36,224 nucleotides of DNA, taken from Candidatus Pacearchaeota archaeon (lineage in GTDB: Archaea; Nanobdellota; Nanobdellia; Pacearchaeales; GW2011-AR1). The stretch lies in NCBI GenBank assembly GCA_018221285.1, contig JAAOYJ010000024.1:77156-113379 (forward strand), read 5' to 3'. The position numbers were made by a program, and so were the translations under genes. A model generated the notes under the pieces. It did no database searches. It saw only the letters and a list, made by a program, of their open reading frames with translations, and was not told the origin of the DNA. Of this stretch, positions 25,323-36,224 are shown one piece after another; positions within the stretch are counted from its first letter, which is position 1, and every line of letters starts with the position of its first letter.

Positions 25323-28300
25323 ATGGCATATAAGAGGTATATTAAAAAAGGTGGCAAGGTCTATGGACCATATATTTATCACAGTCATAAGAAAGATGGC
25401 AAGGTTGTTTCTAAGTACCTCGGAAAGCACGAAGAGCAAAAAAAGTTAAAGGATTTCTTTAAGAGTAGTGTAAAACTGAATAAGAAACCAAAGGTTTCTA
25501 AGAAAGGTTTGAAGACTGGAAAGAAGTTTTTTAAGAAGAGTTCTAAGAAGAGAAGTAGTGCGCACCGCTCGGTGTACCCCAAAAATTTGAATGAGTGGGC
25601 AAAAAAATCTGCATCGAGATATGTAGGGTTATCTCAGCAGGCAAATAAACTACAGAAGAGTTTGAGAAGCGGGGCAAAAGCATCGGCTTCTTTTATTTCT
25701 AAGTCCAGGATGTCTAAGCCATCAGCAAGCATCCTGGCACATAGACCTTTGTTGTCTAAGCCTTTATCACGAAGTTGGAAAAAGTCCAAAGGACTTCAAC
25801 CGCGAACGTTGATGAAGAAACCAGGGGACCATAAAATAAATTTCTCAAAGAGGTTTTTATTTCTTGGATTGGCGGGACTGTTTCTTTTGTTATGCATGGC
25901 TTTTTTAGTGAATCTCGGGCTCACTGGGAAGGTTGCTTTGGATGTAAAATCCAAATACACTGCTGGAGAAGTAATTAAAGGGGATCTGAAGTTCTCTCTG
26001 CAAGCCGGAGAGTTGATTCCGACTGATTCTATTCTAATTCTTAATTTGGGTGGCGATACCCATGAGTTTATTTTATCTGATTTGATTGATGGTGGTTTGG
26101 TGGAGGGAGATTTCTATGCTGAAAATACTGTAATTTCTGGGACTGGTTCTGGATATGGTTTGATTGGTTCTAAGCAAGTTTATCCTGATGTTGGCTTTGA
26201 TTTGAGGATATTTGATGAGGGAAAAGAGTCTGTAGAAGACGAAACCCCTGTAGTGGAGGAAGATAATGTAACAGAAGAAGAAGAGAATGTTACAGGGGAA
26301 GAAGAGAATGTTACAGAAGAAGAAGTTAATGAAAGTGAGGAAGTAGTTGAAGAAGAAGTTCCTGCTGAAGAAGAAACTCCTGAAGAGATTGTAGAAAGTG
26401 AAGAGCCTACAGAATCTAGCGATAAAAAAGAGAAGAAGGATAAAGAAAAAGATTCAGAGCCAAGTGAAAGTGAGGATAGTTCAGAAAGTGATGAATATTC
26501 TGGAGAAGAATCCTCAGAATCAAGCGAAAGTTCAGATTCAGATAGTAGTTCATCGCCAATAACAGGTGCTGCTGTATCAGAATCGGATGAGATTGTGTCT
26601 GGAACTGTAAATAAAGATGAAGAATTCACATATGGGTATGAAAAAGGTAAAACTGCAGAGCTCATTGAAGGGACTGTAACAGTTAATGGGGCTGTAATTG
26701 ATGATGGTTCTGTTAAAGTTAAGGCAAAAAATAAGAAGGTTGTTGTGTCAACTAAATATTTTATTGAGGAGAAAGGTTTCGGAGAAGAATATCTTGGAAA
26801 GAAGAAGTTGAAGTTGAAGATTAAACTTAAACAGTTTGGTTTAGTAGTCGAAAATGATTCTGAGTTAATTGTGAAACTTGTTTACAGAGAGGAAATTTTG
26901 GTTGAAGCAAGTAAAGATTTAGTAGTTGATGGGGAAGGGGGTGAAGAAGTTAATGAAACAGAAGTTCCTGAGACTAATTATACTCAAGTGAATGAAACTA
27001 GAGCGAATGTTACTGATACGAACATAACAATTGTTAATGAGACTGTGGTGAATGTGACTATTTTAGATAATGTTGAGATTAACACAACTCAGTTTGGAGC
27101 TGTTTTGAATAAACCTGTTAGATGGAAGAAAGCAGTAACACTTAGCGAAATTGGAAATGTGACAGTTGAGCTTCCTAAAGAGGCGACTAATATTACTGTT
27201 TATATGTTGGATGGAGAAGAGGAAGGAGTTGAGCTTAATGAAACTGAAATTGAACAGAATGAAAGTGTTGTAGAGAGCAATGAAACAGCAGGAAATTTAC
27301 CTGCTTCGCAGATTGATGATGGGCTGTTAATAGAAGAAGATCCTCAAGGATTAACTAATGAAAGCATTGTGGATGCTAATGAGACAGAAATTGTTGAAGA
27401 AACTCCCAAAGTCAAAAAAGAGAAAAAGAAAAAGGGCAAAAAAGTGCAAATCACTGCACAGGTCATTTCAGGAGAGGTTTCAGTAGAGATTGAGTTAGAA
27501 GAGGGCTCTTCAGTCTATAATTTCTTTAGGAATATTTTTAATACTATCACGGGAAGAGTGATTGATGTTGAGGAAAAAGAGAATGTTACAGAGGTTGTGA
27601 TTGATGAGAATGGGACTGAATTTGAGATTGCTTATGAGACTCCTGCTCCTGTGGCGTTTGAGTCTAATACTTCTAAAGGTAAGGATATTGTGATTTCTTC
27701 GGATGTTCATTATGAGAATATCTTGGCTTTCACAGAGCTTCCTAAAGAGGTTCCTGCGAGTATTGTGAAGTTGTATTGGATTACTCAGGAGAATGTGACA
27801 ATTGAGAGCAATAGGACAGAAGAGCAGTGTGATTATAACAATGAGACGAATTCTACAGTTTGTGAAAATGTAACAGTGAGTGATTATGTGGTGAATGGGA
27901 CAAGAGAGGTGCGTGAATTGGTGAATGTGACTAAGTATGATTTGAATAATAATTCTCTGGTTGATTATATTGAATGGGTTGTGCCGAGTTTGAGTAATCA
28001 GAGTTATGAGTTGGAGTTGAGTATTTTGAATGTTCAGTCCTATCCGACTGTTGGAGGGAACTGGACTGTCCGATTTAATACAACTGGGACTGCTAATTTG
28101 ACTATCAATGCTTATGATGGGACGACTTGGATAAATAAGACAGAGTATGATTTGAGGATTGAGAACAATGAGAGTGTTTCAGAGGATTTGGTTTATCTTG
28201 AGACAAAGTGTGGGCCTAACTCAACTGCGTTGAATTATTCTTGGATAGATAATAATTGTTCTGTTTCAGGGAATTGTTCAGTGCTTATCCAGAATTACTC

Positions 28301-31300
28301 ATGTGAGACAACTGGTTATCACACTGTTAAGGTTTTGACTCCTGGGATTCATAATCAGTTGTTTGAGTTTGGGGATCAGAATGCGAGTGCGCATAATCTT
28401 GCTTCGTTTAATTTGACTGAAGGGGTGGTGGGGTGGTGGAGATTTGATGATGATACTCCTGTTGAGATGCCAGACTATGGGGCAACAACACCTATTGACA
28501 TGACTGGTAATGTGTTGTTGATGCACTTTGATAATCATACTCCTGTTGAGATGCCTGCGAATATGGCAACAACCCCTGTTAATATGGATGGTAATGTGCT
28601 GTTGATGCATATGGATAATTCTTCAAGTGTAGGAGAGAATGATAGTTTGGTTTATGATTGGAGTGGGAATGGGAATAATGGAACAATGGCTGTTGGGGCT
28701 CCTACGTTTACGACTTCTAGGAGAGTTGGGGCTGGGGCTTATGAGTTTGATGGAGATGGAGATGGTATTAATTTGGGTAGTGATGATAGTTTGGATGGGT
28801 TGGGACCTTTAACTTATTCATTATGGGTCAAACCTAATGTTGCTTCACACAATGCGATTTGGATGGGAAAAACAACTGGATGGACTCATAGGAAAACATT
28901 TTATTCTGCTAGTTCTAAACTTCATTTTCAAGTAGATGGTTCAACAGACCTTGAATGGGTTTCAGATTGGGATGTGTATGAAGCTGATGTGTGGCAACAC
29001 TATGTTGTTACATGGGATGGGGGAACTGCGGCTTCAGGTGTTAAAGTTTATAAAAATGGTATTGAGGTTACGCCTGATGCTACTGTTAATGGAATTGGCC
29101 TTGTTGATGATTCTGCAGATTCATTTTATATCGGAGCAAGGTTGAGTGGTCCTGATTATTATTTCAACGGCTCAATAGACGAAGTAGCAATCTGGAACCG
29201 TTCGTTGAGTGCTGATGAGATTTCTGCACTGTATGAAATGCAGAAGGGTCCGAAGATTTTGGAGGATTCGAGTAAGAGGGGTGCTACTGAAGCGACTGCT
29301 AGTGGTGATCCTGTATTTACTACTTCGAGTAAGATGGGTAATGGGGCCTATGAGTTTGATGCTGTTGGAGATTATTTTAATCTGGGAACACGTGCTTCTT
29401 TTGATGCAATGACTGAGATGACTTTTAGTGCTTGGATAAAATCAGGGGATAATAATGCAGGTAAGACCATACTTAATCTTCGTTCAGGGGCCAGTGACCA
29501 AATATATTTCGATGTTGATAATGGGGAAGATAATTTAAGAGTATGGAATAATATTGATGCTGCTGGTCCTGAGTCTGCTTCTTCAAGTGCTATTGCTTTA
29601 GCTGATAAGATGCATCATGTGGTGTGGATTGTTAATTCTTCAAATTCAACAACTGCATATTATGATGGGGAGCTTGTTCTAGGCCCAACACAATTTACAA
29701 CAGGATTATCCACATTAGATGATGGTTTTGATTTACTTATTGGAACTATTTACGGAGGGAATTTATTCAATGGAACCATGGATGAAGTTGCACTCTGGAA
29801 TAGGACGCTGTCGGCTGACGAGATTAAGAACTTGTATATGAAGCAGGAGGGGAATTTTCCAAGGGATTATTCTGGGCATTGTTATGACAATGAGACTGAG
29901 ATATTGACCGATGAAGGTTGGAAATATTTTTCCGAATTAAATCAAAATGAAGGGGTGGCGACGCTGAATTCAGAGAGTGGGGAGTTGGAGTGGCAGACTC
30001 CAACTGAATGGCAGGAGTTTGATAATAAAGGAGATATGTATAGAATTGAAACAGATGAGGGGGATTTAGTTGTTAGTGAGAAGCATAGTGTTTATTCTAA
30101 TTCTAATAATTCAATTAATTCTTTTGTTGTGAATGAAGGAATTAATGATTGTTCTTTGAAATGTTTGTCGTTGGACCAGATTGGAATAGATAGTATTGAG
30201 GCCAATGCTAAATATGTTACATCTTTTGGGTCTGAAATTTTGGAGGAGAATTCTTTGATTGATTTGGAATATTTTGATTTATCTATGAATGAAACATTTT
30301 CTTTAAGAAGCTTAATTGCTGAGTTGAAATCAAGACCTGATTTAGATGCGAATTCTTCTTTGTGTTTTTGTAATTCTATTAATGCAAAGTCGGGTGCAAA
30401 TAATTTTAATGAAAATCTTGAGACAATTGAATTAGCAACACTTGAAGGTTTGGCTAATGCGAATAGAACATTAGCATCAACAACGAATTTCATCTTGGAT
30501 TATAATAATTTCTCCTTTTCAAGTTGTTTGGTGACGCCTTCATTAACTTCTTTCCCTAATTCAATACACCATTCTGAGAATCCGTTCTCATCTTCCTGCT
30601 TGAGTTTAGCTAACATTTCTTGTTTCCAAGATAATTGCTTAGCTTTGGTTTCAATTGATGCTCTAACAAATCTAGACCAATTAATTTCTGGAAATCTTTT
30701 CATGAGTTCTCTTGTTTCTCCTGGTACAGATAGTGTTATTGATGCCATTTTATTGTTTTCTGTTGAAAAACATAAATACGTTGAACTATTTAAATCTTTT
30801 GATTTGGAACAAATAACAGAAACTTATGAAAGGTTTGAAAACGGTGAGGAAATCTACTTTTTAGATGAAAATAATAAACCAGTGAAAGTAAAATCAATCA
30901 GCAAGATAACTGATTATTCTGGAAAGATTTATGATGTTGATGTTGAGAATGATATTGTTTTGGTTAGAAGAGGGGAGAGCATTGCTTTATGGAGTGGTAA
31001 TTCTAATAATGGAACTGTTTATGGAGATGTTGTGTGGAATTCAACTGACATGAAGGTTGGTAATGGGGCCTATGATTTTGATGGTGTTGGTGATTATGTG
31101 ATGGTGAATGATATGGGTTCTGTTGAAGGTGTTAGTGGTCTTGCCGTATCTGCATGGGTAAAATCCACTGTCTCTGATAATCCAACGAATGTTAATATGG
31201 TCTCTAAAGAAGGAGGGGGAGATGATACATTTACTCTTAAATGGTATTCAAATGAAAATGTTGTTTTCCAAGTATTTAATACAACGGGAGGATTCTCAAT

Positions 31301-34300
31301 AGCCCAATTTACAGATGGGATTGAAGATACAAATTGGCACCATATTGTTGGAATTTATAATGGGACTAATGCATTAGTTTATGTGGATGGAGTGGTTGGA
31401 GGAACTGCTCCAGTTTTAGAAGGGGCAACATTAGATACGGCTCATGAAGTAGTAATAGGTTCATCTTCAACTGAGGCTTACTTTTGGAATGGCTCAATAG
31501 ATGAAGTAATGATATGGAATAGGTCGTTGAGTGCTGCAGAGGTCCAGCAGTTGTATAATTTGACGAACATGAGTTTGAGTGTTGTGAACTTGACAATATG
31601 GGATGATTCTGATAGCGGGACTGTTTATCCGAATTACACGAAGTTCTATGCTGATTATTCTTCTGGGGTGACTAAATTGAATGGAACGAATTATACTTGC
31701 GAGTTCAGGCATAATAAAACTGGGCTGGCTTGGAATTTGTATTCTCCAGTTAATATGTCATTCAATTCAACATCAAATTTATATGAACTGATTGCAGACG
31801 GGGGCTATACAAATAACGGGGTTACACACACAGATGGAATGCCTGTTGGAAGTTATTGGTTTAATATCTCGTGTTATGATGCGGGCGGAACTTACCAGAA
31901 TATTAGTTTGGTTGATGCTGTTACAGTCTCAGAATATAACACAAGCTTGGCAACAAGTAAGAATAATAGTTCTCCTGATTTTAATGAACAAGTTACATTC
32001 AGTGCGAACTTTACTCGTGATGATCCGTGGGATGTTGAGAATTGGCCTTGGGGACAGGAGATTGGGAGGGTTATATTAAACAAGTCTGGTTTTGGGTCTT
32101 ATAATTATCCAATTAGATTTTTTGATTATGACGGAGATGGGAAAAAGGATGAATTCTTGATAGAATCTCGTGCTGGTTCTGATGTTTTGCATGCTTATTA
32201 TAGTAATGGAACAGAGATTACTGCGGATAATTGGCCTGGAGAAGAGATGAGTGGTGCCTCTGTTGTTATGGAAGTAGGAGATTTGGATGGAGATGGTTTT
32301 GAGAATGATTTGATTATTGGGGGGCATGGAGATACTATCCGTATATTTAATGGAACAGGGGACCAGGTCCAGTCTTTTGCTGCGGGAGATACTGTGAGTT
32401 CAATTAAGATTGGGGATTTGGACAATGATGGGTTGAAGAATGATTTTGTTGTAGGATCATATGCAAATAAGATAATGGTATTTAATACAAGTGACGGGCG
32501 GATATGGGAGAATTCATGGAATTATTCTACAGGCTCTGATGTGTATGACGTTGAGATTGGAGATTTTGATAGAGATGGTTATGAGGATGATGTTGCTTGC
32601 GCAAGTACAAGTAATACTGTATCTGTTTTTGTTGGCATAAATGGTACTCTGATATTTAATACTACTCTCACAAATTCATATAGTGTTACAGCCATGGATT
32701 TGAATGATGATGGGTATAATGATGAGCTTGTTGTAGGGGTTTGGTCAGCAGTAAGGGCCTTCAGGTGGAATGGGACTTGGGGTTCTACAATGCAGAATGT
32801 GGATGATGATGCGACTGGTTATATTTTCGCCCAGGGTAGTGGGCTTAGCGGTTTTGTTTTTGAGATAGTGCCTATTGATTTAGATGATGATGGAAAGAAA
32901 GACGAATTTATTGCTTCGGATTCAGTAGGCACGGTTTCTGCGTATAATGAAAGCGGAGGCATTAATTGGAGCTTTACACTTCCAGCTGATGATGTTGGAA
33001 ATATTTTAGTGAAGGATATTAATAATGATGGGGTGGATGAAGTTGTTGCAGGAGATAGTGATGCCATAGTTTGGGTTTTGAATAAATCAGGAGATTTATT
33101 ATGGAATTATGAATTTAGTCAGGCAGGAACTATTGGGGGTGGTGGCAAACATCCAGGTCTTGATGTAGGAGATTTGAATGGTGATGGGATTAATGATTTA
33201 ATTGCTTTGGATGGAACCACTTCACTTAGTGCAATAATGAGTGCTTTGCAGGACGCATCCTGCTCAATACAATTCACAGACGAAGCTTCAACATATTATA
33301 ATGAGACAGGTTCGAATTTGGAGGATGGTTTGGTTTTGTTAATGCATATGAATAATGATTCTGATCATTGTTATGATAATGAGACGAGAGTTATGACGGG
33401 AGTTGAAGTTGATTGTGGTAGTGTTGATTGTGGAGAGGAAGGGATTGTTTGTGAAGAAATACCTGCTCGTTCCTCGCAGATTGATAGGGGGTTGTTAATA
33501 GAAGAAACACAGGTTAATAGTGATGATAGTAGTTACTCCTCGCAACAACAGACTTCAGATTTCTTGGTTAATAGTTTAAGTAATTCTGAACAAAGTGAAG
33601 CTAATATTAGAAAATGTTACAAGCAAACATGGAAATATTTTGTTGATGTTGAGTATGATGATGAGATTCTTACTTTGAATTCAACTAGTGGCGGGGAAGA
33701 ATATCATAAACCGTTTGAAATACAAAATTTGAATACACCTGAGTTCATGTATAGAATAGAGACTGAAGATGGGGATTTGGTTGTTAGTCCGAAACATAGA
33801 GTTTATGCGTCAACAGATTACTTAAATAAATTATCTGGATATGAAATAAATCTGAATATAGAAACTACAAATAATCTTCCTTTGAACTCAGACGGCTTGA
33901 CTTCTTTGAGCAATTTTGATAATAATGAGAATGTAGTATCGATTAATGGAGGAGTTATTTTAAACACTACAATTCCAGAATGCTCTTTAGGAGGAAATAA
34001 CTTTTTATTAAGGAAATGCTTGTCAAATGTTAATATAACTCTTGAATCAGATTTGGATAGTTTAGATAATTGTTTATCAGATGCTCTTAATGAAACTTTC
34101 TTAACATCATATCCTTTTTCCCTTAATAATTTATCAACCCCTATTGGAAAGTTCTCGTCAGAAAGAAACTTTAACTTATTCTTGGAGAAGAACATGTTTT
34201 TCTTCTCCGATGAGTTTGGAAGCATATGTCAGAACAGAAAAGATAGCAGGGCTTGTGAGTTGAGGGAAATAATCTTGAATGATTTTGTCGATAGTGACTC

Positions 34301-36224
34301 CTGCTCCAAGCAATTCCATAACTTGCCAGACCATAACTCTTGTTCCTTTGAATGTAGGAGTTCCACCACAAATTTCAGTATCAGCAACAATGAACTCGTT
34401 AATATCAATTCTCATGAATTAAATATGGGTGAGGAAATATTTAAATCTTTTGATTATGGAAAAGATAATGATTCAGTAAGCTTTGTCGTGATGCCTGAAG
34501 TTTTCGAAGAAGATGGTGTTATCTTTAAGTTGGAATGTGAGAATGAAGCTTTCAATATGGACTCTTTTGAGGTGATTCATTGGGGCTCTGAGGTTTTTGA
34601 AATGGTTGATGAAAAAAATGTCGGAGTTAATAATTTGTTTGATTTTTTTGTTAACGGCAATTGCAAGAGTTTTGTCTTTTCTGGAGAGTTTAGCGAGGGT
34701 TTTTTCCAATTTATTAGAAATCTCAAATTTGAAGGTCATTCTAAGCCCATTAATTTATCTAATCTTTCTAAGGTAAATTCAGAATGTGGTCCTTTCTCAG
34801 CTTCTTTCAATTCTTTAATAAAAGATTCTTTCATAGGTAATTCGTCAACAGGGTGCCAGTCAATCGCTTCGCAAAATTCACTGTCTTCATCAGTAACTTC
34901 TTTGGTTTGTTTGAATCGTTCAGAAATGTCACGTTTCATTAATGAGACAACTGCTTTAGCTACAAATTTAGAATCTAATTCTAAATTATCCTCGAAAGAT
35001 TTCATCAATTCAGCCATGAATAATGAAGAGAATGGGGATTATTTAAAACTTTCTGATAAGAGGTTACCTGCTCGTGATGGCTCGCAGATTGATGAAGAGT
35101 TGTTAATAGAAAAAATGCCATTTAATGATAATTTATTAGTTAACAGTTTGAATAATCCTTTGCCGTCAGGCAAAGCTAATTTTGATTTGGAGGATTTCTC
35201 TCTTGAGCAAATCTCAGAAACATACAATAGATTTAATTCAGGCGAGGAAATTTATTTCTTAGATAGAGAAGGTAATGAAATTCAGATTAAAGATATTACT
35301 AAAGAATTTTATTCTGGAAGAATCTACGACGTGGATGTGCCGAATGACATTATCTTGGTTGAGAGGGATGGTTTGGTTGTATGGTCTGGTAATTCAGAGA
35401 ATGATACGCTTGTTTATGATTTTTCAGGGAATGGGAATAATGGGACTTCAAAGGGGGATGCACAACCTAATTTGACTAATAAGAAATTAGGTGCGGGAAG
35501 TTTTGAATTTGATGGTAGTGGGGATGATTATGTGAATGCTGGACAAGATATGCTTAATGAGAATAATCAAAGTTTTACAGTTTCGGCATGGGCTTATCGT
35601 CATGATGCAGATAATTATGGGGGGATTGTTAGTAAAGATAGCGGGAATAGGGATTGGTTTATTGCAGAAGCACCTAATGGAGAGATAAGAATAAGAATTT
35701 ATGAAACAGATGGGGGAGAGAAAGAATCCGATTCCCCTGGAGATTCTTTCCCGATTAACACTTGGACACATGTAGGATTTATTGTAGATATTGAGAATGG
35801 GAAGTTATATAGGATAGTAAATGGTGTTTTAACTGATATAACCGGTGCTTGGGATGGAACCTCGAGGAATAGGGTAACAAGTCTTAATATTGGAAAGACC
35901 CATAGTGGTTCAGATTATACTTTCGACGGTTCAATAGACGAAGTAGCAGTCTGGAACCGTTCGTTGAGTGCTGATGAAGTTTGGGAGACTTATAATGCAG
36001 GAGCAGAGAAGCACAGCATGGCATGGAATGTGGCATCAGATGAGTGGGAATATAATAAGAGTTTCTCGACTGCGGAGAATATTACCTATGGAACTCTTTG
36101 TGAGAAGGGAGGTTATGAAACTTCAATGACCACAGGTTCAATTGATTTGACAAGTTCAATCTCATTGAGTAAGACTGCTGGAACACTTTATGCGAACTAC
36201 TCGAAGTTCACAGCGAACTACACA
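25323..36224 (+). CDS. Giant membrane-anchored surface protein with LamG and VCBS-like repeats, interrupted by two inteins (partial)
   Basis: One frame stays open from the ATG to the window end: 3,634 codons with no stop. Residues 1-176 are Lys/Ser-rich and cytoplasmic (start MAYKRYIKKGGKVYGPYIYH). A single membrane helix (about 178-201, FLGLAGLFLLLCMAFLV) follows, then a Glu/Ser/Asp-rich stalk (about 300-440), Asn-glycosylation-type N-x-T/S sites throughout, and four LamG-like domains (about 1100-1306, 1320-1510, 1894-2080 after intein removal, and 3358-3560) ending in phrases like GSIDEVAIWNRSLSADE. FG-GAP/VCBS-type calcium repeats (D-x-D-x-DG) lie at about 2253-2640. Intein-like elements lie at 1520-1893 and 2683-3357. 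It probably binds glycans or cells at the surface (inference), plausible for an archaeon living attached to a host. Confidence 0.9.
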   Translation, partial: MAYKRYIKKGGKVYGPYIYHSHKKDGKVVSKYLGKHEEQKKLKDFFKSSVKLNKKPKVSKKGLKTGKKFFKKSSKKRSSAHRSVYPKNLNEWAKKSASRYVGLSQQANKLQKSLRSGAKASASFISKSRMSKPSASILAHRPLLSKPLSRSWKKSKGLQPRTLMKKPGDHKINFSKRFLFLGLAGLFLLLCMAFLVNLGLTGKVALDVKSKYTAGEVIKGDLKFSLQAGELIPTDSILILNLGGDTHEFILSDLIDGGLVEGDFYAENTVISGTGSGYGLIGSKQVYPDVGFDLRIFDEGKESVEDETPVVEEDNVTEEEENVTGEEENVTEEEVNESEEVVEEEVPAEEETPEEIVESEEPTESSDKKEKKDKEKDSEPSESEDSSESDEYSGEESSESSESSDSDSSSSPITGAAVSESDEIVSGTVNKDEEFTYGYEKGKTAELIEGTVTVNGAVIDDGSVKVKAKNKKVVVSTKYFIEEKGFGEEYLGKKKLKLKIKLKQFGLVVENDSELIVKLVYREEILVEASKDLVVDGEGGEEVNETEVPETNYTQVNETRANVTDTNITIVNETVVNVTILDNVEINTTQFGAVLNKPVRWKKAVTLSEIGNVTVELPKEATNITVYMLDGEEEGVELNETEIEQNESVVESNETAGNLPASQIDDGLLIEEDPQGLTNESIVDANETEIVEETPKVKKEKKKKGKKVQITAQVISGEVSVEIELEEGSSVYNFFRNIFNTITGRVIDVEEKENVTEVVIDENGTEFEIAYETPAPVAFESNTSKGKDIVISSDVHYENILAFTELPKEVPASIVKLYWITQENVTIESNRTEEQCDYNNETNSTVCENVTVSDYVVNGTREVRELVNVTKYDLNNNSLVDYIEWVVPSLSNQSYELELSILNVQSYPTVGGNWTVRFNTTGTANLTINAYDGTTWINKTEYDLRIENNESVSEDLVYLETKCGPNSTALNYSWIDNNCSVSGNCSVLIQNYSCETTGYHTVKVLTPGIHNQLFEFGDQNASAHNLASFNLTEGVVGWWRFDDDTPVEMPDYGATTPIDMTGNVLLMHFDNHTPVEMPANMATTPVNMDGNVLLMHMDNSSSVGENDSLVYDWSGNGNNGTMAVGAPTFTTSRRVGAGAYEFDGDGDGINLGSDDSLDGLGPLTYSLWVKPNVASHNAIWMGKTTGWTHRKTFYSASSKLHFQVDGSTDLEWVSDWDVYEADVWQHYVVTWDGGTAASGVKVYKNGIEVTPDATVNGIGLVDDSADSFYIGARLSGPDYYFNGSIDEVAIWNRSLSADEISALYEMQKGPKILEDSSKRGATEATASGDPVFTTSSKMGNGAYEFDAVGDYFNLGTRASFDAMTEMTFSAWIKSGDNNAGKTILNLRSGASDQIYFDVDNGEDNLRVWNNIDAAGPESASSSAIALADKMHHVVWIVNSSNSTTAYYDGELVLGPTQFTTGLSTLDDGFDLLIGTIYGGNLFNGTMDEVALWNRTLSADEIKNLYMKQEGNFPRDYSGHCYDNETEILTDEGWKYFSELNQNEGVATLNSESGELEWQTPTEWQEFDNKGDMYRIETDEGDLVVSEKHSVYSNSNNSINSFVVNEGINDCSLKCLSLDQIGIDSIEANAKYVTSFGSEILEENSLIDLEYFDLSMNETFSLRSLIAELKSRPDLDANSSLCFCNSINAKSGANNFNENLETIELATLEGLANANRTLASTTNFILDYNNFSFSSCLVTPSLTSFPNSIHHSENPFSSSCLSLANISCFQDNCLALVSIDALTNLDQLISGNLFMSSLVSPGTDSVIDAILLFSVEKHKYVELFKSFDLEQITETYERFENGEEIYFLDENNKPVKVKSISKITDYSGKIYDVDVENDIVLVRRGESIALWSGNSNNGTVYGDVVWNSTDMKVGNGAYDFDGVGDYVMVNDMGSVEGVSGLAVSAWVKSTVSDNPTNVNMVSKEGGGDDTFTLKWYSNENVVFQVFNTTGGFSIAQFTDGIEDTNWHHIVGIYNGTNALVYVDGVVGGTAPVLEGATLDTAHEVVIGSSSTEAYFWNGSIDEVMIWNRSLSAAEVQQLYNLTNMSLSVVNLTIWDDSDSGTVYPNYTKFYADYSSGVTKLNGTNYTCEFRHNKTGLAWNLYSPVNMSFNSTSNLYELIADGGYTNNGVTHTDGMPVGSYWFNISCYDAGGTYQNISLVDAVTVSEYNTSLATSKNNSSPDFNEQVTFSANFTRDDPWDVENWPWGQEIGRVILNKSGFGSYNYPIRFFDYDGDGKKDEFLIESRAGSDVLHAYYSNGTEITADNWPGEEMSGASVVMEVGDLDGDGFENDLIIGGHGDTIRIFNGTGDQVQSFAAGDTVSSIKIGDLDNDGLKNDFVVGSYANKIMVFNTSDGRIWENSWNYSTGSDVYDVEIGDFDRDGYEDDVACASTSNTVSVFVGINGTLIFNTTLTNSYSVTAMDLNDDGYNDELVVGVWSAVRAFRWNGTWGSTMQNVDDDATGYIFAQGSGLSGFVFEIVPIDLDDDGKKDEFIASDSVGTVSAYNESGGINWSFTLPADDVGNILVKDINNDGVDEVVAGDSDAIVWVLNKSGDLLWNYEFSQAGTIGGGGKHPGLDVGDLNGDGINDLIALDGTTSLSAIMSALQDASCSIQFTDEASTYYNETGSNLEDGLVLLMHMNNDSDHCYDNETRVMTGVEVDCGSVDCGEEGIVCEEIPARSSQIDRGLLIEETQVNSDDSSYSSQQQTSDFLVNSLSNSEQSEANIRKCYKQTWKYFVDVEYDDEILTLNSTSGGEEYHKPFEIQNLNTPEFMYRIETEDGDLVVSPKHRVYASTDYLNKLSGYEINLNIETTNNLPLNSDGLTSLSNFDNNENVVSINGGVILNTTIPECSLGGNNFLLRKCLSNVNITLESDLDSLDNCLSDALNETFLTSYPFSLNNLSTPIGKFSSERNFNLFLEKNMFFFSDEFGSICQNRKDSRACELREIILNDFVDSDSCSKQFHNLPDHNSCSFECRSSTTNFSISNNELVNINSHELNMGEEIFKSFDYGKDNDSVSFVVMPEVFEEDGVIFKLECENEAFNMDSFEVIHWGSEVFEMVDEKNVGVNNLFDFFVNGNCKSFVFSGEFSEGFFQFIRNLKFEGHSKPINLSNLSKVNSECGPFSASFNSLIKDSFIGNSSTGCQSIASQNSLSSSVTSLVCLNRSEMSRFINETTALATNLESNSKLSSKDFINSAMNNEENGDYLKLSDKRLPARDGSQIDEELLIEKMPFNDNLLVNSLNNPLPSGKANFDLEDFSLEQISETYNRFNSGEEIYFLDREGNEIQIKDITKEFYSGRIYDVDVPNDIILVERDGLVVWSGNSENDTLVYDFSGNGNNGTSKGDAQPNLTNKKLGAGSFEFDGSGDDYVNAGQDMLNENNQSFTVSAWAYRHDADNYGGIVSKDSGNRDWFIAEAPNGEIRIRIYETDGGEKESDSPGDSFPINTWTHVGFIVDIENGKLYRIVNGVLTDITGAWDGTSRNRVTSLNIGKTHSGSDYTFDGSIDEVAVWNRSLSADEVWETYNAGAEKHSMAWNVASDEWEYNKSFSTAENITYGTLCEKGGYETSMTTGSIDLTSSISLSKTAGTLYANYSKFTANYT
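27298..27341 (+). repeat. In-frame PA-SQID-LLIEE repeat, copy 1
   Basis: Encodes LPASQIDDGLLIEED in the giant gene. The DNA core CGCAGATTGATG...GTTAATAGAAGA recurs at 33461 and 35066 in the same reading frame, in unrelated surroundings. Confidence 0.65.
28452..28619 (+). repeat. Tandem 84-nt repeat (two units) in the giant gene
   Basis: The units 28452-28535 and 28536-28619 each encode 28 residues (TPVEMP...ATTP...GNVLLMH-x-DN). They are alike at both DNA and protein level and lie just before the first LamG domain, a recent tandem duplication of its leading strand. Confidence 0.75.
30092..30493 (-). CDS. vapC: PIN-domain toxin (VapC-like), antisense inside intein 1
   Basis: A 133-residue PIN ribonuclease. 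Acidic active-site residues are in place: Asp6 (FVVDANVL), Glu40 (DFALIELQKHK), Asp91 (DPKDVTYLALA) and Asp109 (IWSNDKHF). VapC toxins cut tRNA or rRNA. It follows its antitoxin with a 6-nt gap, in one operon reading against the giant gene. The stop codon sits exactly where the N-terminal Hint block ends, so the pair occupies the endonuclease slot. Confidence 0.9.
   Translation of the reverse strand: MKFVVDANVLFALAKPSSVANSIVSRFSLKLFAPDFALIELQKHKEEFASKSGLDFNSAIKLLKENVSFIDKSKYSKSIKEFSSKISDPKDVTYLALASILSIPIWSNDKHFKEQSLIPSFTTKELIELLELE
30500..30748 (-). CDS. vapB: Ribbon-helix-helix antitoxin (VapB-like), antisense inside intein 1
   Basis: An 82-residue protein. The N-terminus has a ribbon-helix-helix pattern (ASITLSVPGETRELMKRF, WSRFVRASIETKAKQL) expected to bind the operon's own promoter; the acidic/Lys tail (EVNEGVTKQLEKEK) would wrap the toxin. 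A TATA-like TATTTATG (minus strand, 30771-30778) ends 22 nt before the ATG, like the genome's other leaderless genes. It is upstream of vapC, the usual order. Confidence 0.85.
   Translation of the reverse strand: MASITLSVPGETRELMKRFPEINWSRFVRASIETKAKQLSWKQEMLAKLKQEDENGFSEWCIELGKEVNEGVTKQLEKEKLL
30771..30778 (-). promoter_or_regulatory. Antisense TATA-like box for vapBC
   Basis: Located 22 nt before the vapB ATG inside the intein coding sequence. A stronger TTTAAATA lies about 13 nt further upstream (30788-30795) and could also serve. Confidence 0.45.
33461..33606 (+). repeat. In-frame PA-SQID-LLIEE repeat, copy 2 (inside the N block of intein 2)
   Basis: Encodes IPARSSQIDRGLLIEET, and after a Ser-rich stretch FLVNSLSNSEQSEAN. 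Both halves match copy 3 (35066 on). It splits the first Hint strand pair of intein 2. Confidence 0.65.
33818..34195 (-). CDS. DUF5615-type PIN-like toxin, antisense inside intein 2
   Basis: The product is 125 residues from the ATG at 34195; an earlier in-frame ATG at 34225 would add 10. It shows the DUF5615/Mut7-C-like PIN signature: KFLSDENFP near the N-terminus and VILTFDKHF in the middle, supplying acidic metal ligands. It overlaps the end of the DUF433 antitoxin gene by about 20 nt, as is usual for this pair. Such pairs are predicted toxin-antitoxins with a putative ribonuclease. Confidence 0.85.
   Translation of the reverse strand: MFFSKNKLKFLSDENFPIGVDKLLREKGYDVKKVSLRASDKQLSKLSKSDSRVILTFDKHFLNKKLFPPKEHSGIVVFKITPPLIDTTFSLLSKLLKEVKPSEFKGRLFVVSIFRFISYPDNLFK
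34176..34415 (-). CDS. DUF433-type antitoxin, antisense inside intein 2
   Basis: A 79-residue protein with the DUF433 pattern: 'EICGGTPTFKGTRVMVWQVM' (split here as ICGGTPTFKGTRV and MVWQVMELL) and a DYFPQLTSPAIFSVL helix. These small helix-turn-helix proteins pair with DUF5615 toxins. Its codons are in exact opposite register to the giant gene, and none of its 7 Leu or 3 Ser codons is TTA, CTA or TCA, which would create stops in the sense frame. The TATA at 34438-34446 (minus strand) ends 22 nt before the ATG. Confidence 0.87.
   Translation of the reverse strand: MRIDINEFIVADTEICGGTPTFKGTRVMVWQVMELLGAGVTIDKIIQDYFPQLTSPAIFSVLTYASKLIGEEKHVLLQE
34438..34446 (-). promoter_or_regulatory. Antisense TATA box of the DUF433/DUF5615 pair
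   Basis: ATTTAAATA on the minus strand ends 22 nt before the antitoxin ATG. The 17 nt at 34438-34454 are identical to 30787-30803 in intein 1, upstream of vapB, and in the same sense frame. Confidence 0.6.
34473..34739 (-). CDS. relE: RelE/ParE-family toxin, antisense inside intein 2
   Basis: An 88-residue toxin with the RelE pattern: FKFEISNKLEKTLAKLSRKD at the N-terminus, a central KNLRAPMNHLKRVHI strand and the typical C-terminus FENFRHHDKAY. RelE cuts mRNA on ribosomes. Its ATG overlaps the antitoxin stop by 4 nt. It is in exact opposite register to the giant gene, and none of its 8 Leu or 4 Ser codons is TTA, CTA or TCA. Confidence 0.88.
   Translation of the reverse strand: MTFKFEISNKLEKTLAKLSRKDKTLAIAVNKKIKQIINSDIFFINHFKNLRAPMNHLKRVHIESFILTFQLKDNTIFFENFRHHDKAY
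34736..35017 (-). CDS. RelB-like antitoxin, antisense inside intein 2
   Basis: A 93-residue acidic protein upstream of, and overlapping, the RelE-type toxin. It has an N-terminal helical part (LDSKFVAKAVVSLMKRDISERF) and a charged C-terminal part (ESFIKELKEAEKGPHSEFTL) likely to wrap the toxin. No exact antitoxin family is certain; position and size support the call. A minus-strand TATA (TTTAAATAA, 35039-35047) ends 21 nt before the ATG. Confidence 0.75.
   Translation of the reverse strand: MAELMKSFEDNLELDSKFVAKAVVSLMKRDISERFKQTKEVTDEDSEFCEAIDWHPVDELPMKESFIKELKEAEKGPHSEFTLERLDKLMGLE
35039..35047 (-). promoter_or_regulatory. Antisense TATA box of the RelBE-like pair
   Basis: TTTAAATAA on the minus strand, 21 nt before the antitoxin ATG. 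Confidence 0.55.
35066..35187 (+). repeat. In-frame PA-SQID-LLIEE repeat, copy 3
   Basis: Encodes LPARDGSQIDEELLIEK and then LLVNSLNNPLPSGKAN, matching copy 2 across both halves. It contains the palindrome TTGCC-gtca-GGCAA (35160-35173). It lies between the second toxin-antitoxin pair and the C block of intein 2. Confidence 0.65.

Follow-up and report, generated by a model that had tools for sequence, protein, structure and literature searches.

Archaeal inteins of giant LamG proteins carry antisense toxin–antitoxin genes or tRNA in the slot of the homing endonuclease

Two inteins found within one archaeal open reading frame (ORF) probably belong to a monophyletic archaeal intein family that lacks a homing endonuclease and is maintained by addiction. 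What can be read directly from the DNA is the presence of both Hint halves, the splicing residues, the toxin–antitoxin (TA) families and their antisense orientation, the purging of stops from the host frame, the protein-level constraint on the antisense genes, the conserved TATA box, the exchange of cargo and LamG sites without an intein. The window, the whole stretch of 36,224 nucleotides analysed here, is the end of a 113-kb contig in an archaeal MAG of 863 kb (82% complete, 5.8% contamination), and all sequences compared are draft MAGs. Its host gene (25323–36224, plus strand) encodes a giant surface-type protein with Laminin_G_3 (LamG) and FG-GAP domains, as judged from the ORF listing and Pfam, and the plus frame, correctly described as open in the original prediction, runs without a stop from 25323 to the last position of the window, where the contig ends too. 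The two inteins lie in different LamG domains of this ORF (29880–31001 and 33369–35393). The original prediction, made from the DNA letters alone, had read the first of them as an intein with an antisense VapBC pair in the place of the endonuclease, under an open host frame; this holds, but was too narrow, as the element is one of a clade with exchangeable cargo.

Intein 1 (29880–31001, plus strand) comprises 374 residues from Cys1 to Asn374 and is followed by Ser+1 (31002–31004). The N-terminal Hint half, with blocks A and B, occupies 29880–30098 (HMM E = 4.5e-39), and the C-terminal half, with blocks F and G and the terminal residues WSGN, occupies 30798–31001 (HMM E = 1.1e-34). Scores for the entire element against Pfam Intein_splicing (E = 0.0039, under the cut-off) and NCBIfam TIGR01445 intein_Nterm (E = 6e-4) are weak because the Hint domain is split by the cargo; when the cargo is deleted from the sequence, 11 of 12 relatives do match Intein_splicing (best 3.8e-6), and a profile built from the intein family retrieves solved inteins. 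Given the unaltered 374-residue sequence and an alignment of relatives, AlphaFold predicts that residues 1–76 and 302–374 are folded (pLDDT mostly 86–94, about 90 for the N-terminal half) and that the read-through residues 77–301 are disordered (pLDDT about 22). The best 50 Foldseek matches listed are all inteins, bacterial intein-like domains or hedgehog Hint domains. The Hint N and C blocks first recognised in the sequence are thus supported by both family models, by the matches of the relatives and by structure prediction and comparison. No match to a LAGLIDADG or HNH nuclease was found by Pfam in the 374-residue frame.

Removal of intein 1 joins the flanks as RDYSGH/SNNGTVYGDVVW, like the intein-free LamG domain 'YDFSGHGNNGSVVADA' of locus L280, and the joined flanks also resemble YDFSGHGNNGSVV, an intein-free LamG domain of a related genome. 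LamG sites without an intein therefore exist, related genomes contain LamG proteins both with and without the element, and the predicted restoration of a LamG motif upon removal is confirmed. Cys1, the terminal Asn and the +1 Ser are all present, as had been claimed, and are kept together with the block B His in the window inteins and the complete relatives. The canonical block F His and the penultimate His are absent from intein 1 (YDVDVENDIVLV and WSGN); LAGLIDADG-type inteins of related genomes likewise end in WCGN, and the missing His is not taken as defining. These non-canonical blocks F and G, together with the further interruption of block A or block G in some inteins, could mean that the Hint domains no longer splice, or cleave only, and that the giant protein tolerates a disordered insert. 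We consider this improbable, however, given the retention of the four splicing residues in complete members, the confident AlphaFold prediction for both Hint halves and the purging of host-frame stops described below.

Between the Hint halves of intein 1, the minus strand encodes a PIN_2 (VapC-like) toxin at 30092–30493 (PF10130, E = 4.8e-17), whose TAA stop falls within the Val-Tyr codons of Hint block B, and a VapB-type antitoxin of 82 residues at 30500–30748 (NF050799, E = 3.4e-6, under the curated cut-off). The acidic residues expected of a PIN toxin are present by inspection (VVDAN, LIELQ, SDPKD, WSNDKH), in agreement with the original prediction. Its assignment of the partner as an RHH antitoxin was borne out as to the VapB family, in which all nine relatives match NF050799 (best 1.2e-9), but not by Pfam, where the window antitoxin has no RHH match; its predicted layout is an N-terminal segment followed by two helices, and Foldseek on the monomer returned nothing informative. 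A TATA-like box, TTTAAAT (30788–30794, minus strand), at −46 from the antitoxin ATG, is a candidate TA promoter lying beneath the sense peptide LFKSFD. The idea that toxin stops always fall in the Val-Tyr codons of block B was rejected, this being so for only 6 of 19 tabulated modules, some with approximate toxin ends.

Intein 2 (33369–35393, plus strand; 675 residues, +1 Ser), in a separate LamG domain, contains two antisense TA modules in series, DUF5615/DUF433 and YafQ/RelE. Its block A is interrupted by an insertion at 33402–33602 (plus strand, approximate borders from the sequence) in which no gene was recognised, after which the rest of the N-terminal Hint half follows at 33603–33809 (plus strand, HMM E = 7.5e-21, model positions 12–74); the C-terminal half lies at 35196–35393 (plus strand, HMM E = 1.2e-28). 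On the minus strand, the first module consists of a DUF5615 toxin-like gene (33818–34225; PF18480, E = 2.5e-15) and a DUF433 antitoxin-like gene (34176–34415; PF04255, E = 5.5e-18), with a TATA-like box (34439–34445) at −30 of the DUF433 ATG. The second, on the same strand, consists of a YafQ/RelE-family toxin (34473–34739; TIGR00053, E = 3.4e-13, under the curated cut-off, with ParE/YafQ matches in relatives) and a putative antitoxin partner of 93 residues (34736–35017), assigned by position and without a family match, with a TATA-like box (35041–35047) at −30 of its ATG. The insertions in block A of this intein (33369–33602) and of two others (L064:2128–2640 and L058:2209–3000) have in common a leader with a Cys (EVDC...) and a re-entry of the form KCY...WK(Y/L)F.

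Of 200 genomes of the order searched for the Hint part, 29 had matches, the strong ones of which represent the same kind of element, and a scan of 85,000 species genomes gave further named records. The hosts are mainly Candidatus Pacearchaeota and Nanoarchaeota, with further cases in Methanophagales (L070), a euryarchaeal MAG (L071) and an Aenigmarchaeota MAG (L078), and a search across the phylum brought in another family of the class (G213, L278/L279). The 21 TA-inteins form one clade (100/100) in a tree of 45 Hint sequences, apart from 24 other inteins, mainly of LAGLIDADG type; the PIN_2, DUF5615 and YafQ/RelE TA families are absent from those other inteins, some of which come from the same order, and from the 80 Hint loci kept from a viral scan. 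About 32 toxin genes of these three families, counted by hand over the scanned loci, lie beside Hint blocks, and 100% of them are antisense to the Hint frame. Cargo, in the form of antisense TA modules and/or a divergent sense-strand tRNA, is present in every complete clade member, and no complete member without cargo was found in the scanned loci. A one-off misassembly was ruled out, the same architecture being found in about 20 independent MAGs. Apparent frameshifts in L047, L048 and L078 (G170, Aenigmarchaeota LH_S6) represent decay or assembly error.

The cargo of the family ranges over PIN/VapB, DUF5615/DUF433, YafQ/RelE and tRNA and occupies up to three slots. The main slot lies between blocks B and F, the place of the homing nuclease in other inteins; the block A slot holds RelE in L058, a tRNA in L043 and the insert of window intein 2, and a slot between blocks F and G holds RelE in L056, L057 and L064. 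Two modules may also follow one another, separated by the remnant of a C-block, as in L044/L066, L045/L068 and window intein 2. In the Methanophagales locus (L070:5361–7574), HintN-PIN-HintC precedes an incomplete HintN, another PIN/VapB and another HintC, the intein being tandem or nested. Inteins at one and the same LamG position carry different cargo: the site DSDH/SENDT has DUF5615/DUF433 and YafQ in window intein 2 and RelE alone in L063, and sites of SGH/SNNGT type have PIN (window intein 1), RelE with PIN (L058) or RelE (L060). In the PIN tree the label 'intein-borne' switches at least 5–6 times, which indicates that modules have moved in or out repeatedly.

Free-standing relatives of the cargo genes serve as controls for the openness of the host frame, which is unbroken from Cys1 to the Asn–Ser junction in inteins of up to 782 residues. 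Stops occur in each of the three antisense frames of all 29 free-standing PIN_2 genes taken from the same order (set means 10.8, 12.0 and 3.3 per frame, with a minimum of 2 in the best phase), and the lone gene with zero stops among the 30 fetched is the intein-borne copy. Likewise, seven nested YafQ/RelE genes have no host-frame stop, whereas every frame of the 21 free ones contains one or more. Resampling of synonymous codons gave a joint probability near 1e-24 for zero host-frame stops in 30 nested genes, an approximate figure that uses one codon table, related genes and some overlapping gene pairs; the DUF433 and YafQ genes dominate this signal. The window PIN gene taken by itself is unremarkable, the chance of an open host frame for its amino acid sequence being P = 0.44, and the strong signal against chance evidently lies in the family and its free-standing controls. 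Chance openness of the frame was ruled out on the basis of these controls and the resampling. The contrast between nested copies without host-frame stops and free relatives with them implies selection for read-through, and the host ORF is evidently kept readable through the cargo across the family.

The opposite strand is constrained as well. In homologous nested PIN genes, the position that changes least is antisense codon position 2, which is host-frame position 1, in all nine informative pairs; this is the pattern of an antisense-encoded protein, and places the antisense genes under protein-level constraint. The original prediction had singled out a conserved sense-strand domain overlain by non-conserved antisense frames as the finding that would speak against it. 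The plus frame is indeed open throughout, a point in favour of such a domain, but the result went the opposite way: the read-through is predicted to be disordered, substitutions follow the antisense frame, the antisense genes match their families with E = 5e-17, 2.5e-15 and 5e-18, and three unrelated TA families share one slot. We therefore reject spurious antisense ORFs over a conserved sense domain, an explanation to which we give practically no weight.

A box of TTTAAAT/TTTATA type lies upstream of the antitoxin in 21 of 22 modules, either at −28 to −33, a leaderless-type spacing, or, in most VapB modules, at −46 to −58, and is often followed in VapB modules by a sequence of CAACGTA type. 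Over this candidate promoter lies a sense peptide, KHxYVxxFKSFD, that recurs where the C-block begins. The conserved candidate promoter facing the host transcript and the strict antisense orientation would also suit a regulatory or defence device, in which host transcription collides with the antisense TA operon and the TA output reports transcription of the surface-protein gene, for example its shut-off by a virus. This we regard as very improbable: the orientation is equally explained by avoidance of sense-strand stops and translation conflicts, and a PADLOC search gave no match.

TA nesting is not strictly dependent on an intein. In the giant ORF of G174, RelE/antitoxin and PIN/VapB modules lie antisense within the extein with no Hint nearby (L038, G174:C8, 13989–15334 in reverse-complement coordinates), flanked by a duplicated host segment. 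Two free-standing RelE/antitoxin pairs (L293 and L294) branch inside the nested clade and retain an antisense frame open across toxin and antitoxin (209/247 codons); they are likely recent escapees from a nested site. Together with the intermixing of nested and free PIN and RelE genes in trees, these observations lend some weight to a passenger model, in which the TA modules are themselves selfish and settle in giant genes wherever an in-frame niche is neutral, the intein being merely the most permissive niche, since the insert is spliced out, and gaining nothing specific. We hold this model to be unlikely, though a serious contender, as nearly all antisense-nested modules in the scanned loci sit in one Hint clade, and as cargo is present in all complete members of that clade and in no intein of other clades, some from the same order. 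Inteins thus appear to be a favoured, not an exclusive, niche for TA nesting. The passenger and addiction models are not mutually exclusive; the G174 modules support the former, and maintenance by addiction is still the reading we consider the more probable.

Four inteins of the family carry a tRNA in sense orientation, with anticodon CAA and a long variable arm (L042:778–862, plus; L038:9871–9956, minus; L043:3327–3413, plus; L048:679–761, plus), and in L042 it is the sole cargo. With the G174 extein modules, this tRNA-only intein indicates that TA genes can lie outside the intein and that the intein can do without them. Compensatory changes at 15 of 25 pairs among the four, against 0 of 500 shuffles, identify them as real tRNA genes. 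Similarity among three of them is about 75%, and to the ordinary tRNA-Leu(CAA) of G105 only about 50%. A role of the intein tRNA as the sole essential copy was rejected, since G105 has another tRNA-Leu(CAA) and the intein tRNAs are a divergent set. No tRNA was found in the two window inteins.

Our results suggest how such an element could persist. The host mRNA would be translated through the cargo, and the Hint halves would fold together and excise the whole intein, including the cargo-encoded filler. The TA operon would be transcribed independently from the opposite strand by its own candidate promoter. Should the intein be removed, through recombination with an intein-free LamG allele or by deletion, the labile antitoxin would vanish and the toxin would cut RNA, so that cells without the element would be disfavoured; in a polyploid archaeon, allele replacement would be biased toward the intein-bearing allele. 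Addiction would in this way replace homing as the means of maintenance, and splicing would hide the cost to the host protein. Antisense placement of the cargo seems natural, as ribosomes on the host message would have to be shared with, or would be disturbed by, a sense gene, whose stop codon would also have to be kept out of the host frame. Whether the family amounts to a new class of selfish element that persists by addiction, its interchangeable antisense TA operons, and in some cases a divergent tRNA, being so entangled with the host frame at the level of codons that a clean loss of host gene, intein or TA module would always do harm, we judge to be evenly balanced.

The spread and persistence of inteins are explained in textbooks by homing endonucleases. 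For the persistence of nuclease-free inteins, a clade with antisense addiction modules offers a testable second answer, and the family points to a means, not described before, by which a selfish element could escape loss. Nature has here, moreover, placed the codes for two unrelated functional products on opposite strands, and the free-standing relatives provide the controls. Splicing scaffolds with tolerance for long inserts could be obtained from the family, as could naturally occurring cases of genetic entanglement. No report of TA genes inside inteins was found in open-access full texts, and as far as these go the earlier statement that no such intein had been described stands. The components are known; what appears to be new is how they are combined, that the combination is found throughout the clade and that both strands are constrained.

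The closest known systems each share part of this arrangement. Class 1 inteins with LAGLIDADG homing endonucleases have the same Hint fold, Cys1, block B His, terminal Asn and +1 nucleophile, and the same insert position between blocks B and F; here, however, the slot contains antisense TA genes or tRNA and no endonuclease, and the hosts are repetitive LamG proteins, not conserved enzymes. BIL and polymorphic-toxin Hint domains likewise have a Hint fold adjoining a toxin, but there the toxin is encoded in sense and released by Hint, whereas here it is a separate antisense gene. The modules resemble free type II TA systems (VapBC, DUF5615/DUF433, YafQ/RelE) in their families, the antitoxin-first order, the overlapping or adjacent genes and the candidate promoter, but are unlike them in lying antisense inside the frame of another gene that has been purged of stops. 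As with the addiction modules of plasmids and mobile elements, a penalty on loss of the carrier is proposed, although the carrier here is a splicing element in one gene, so that an allele would be protected and not a replicon. Finally, mini-inteins without a homing endonuclease, as described for the homing cycle (PMC8966425), also lack the nuclease, but have lost the slot, which is here refilled with exchangeable, conserved cargo.
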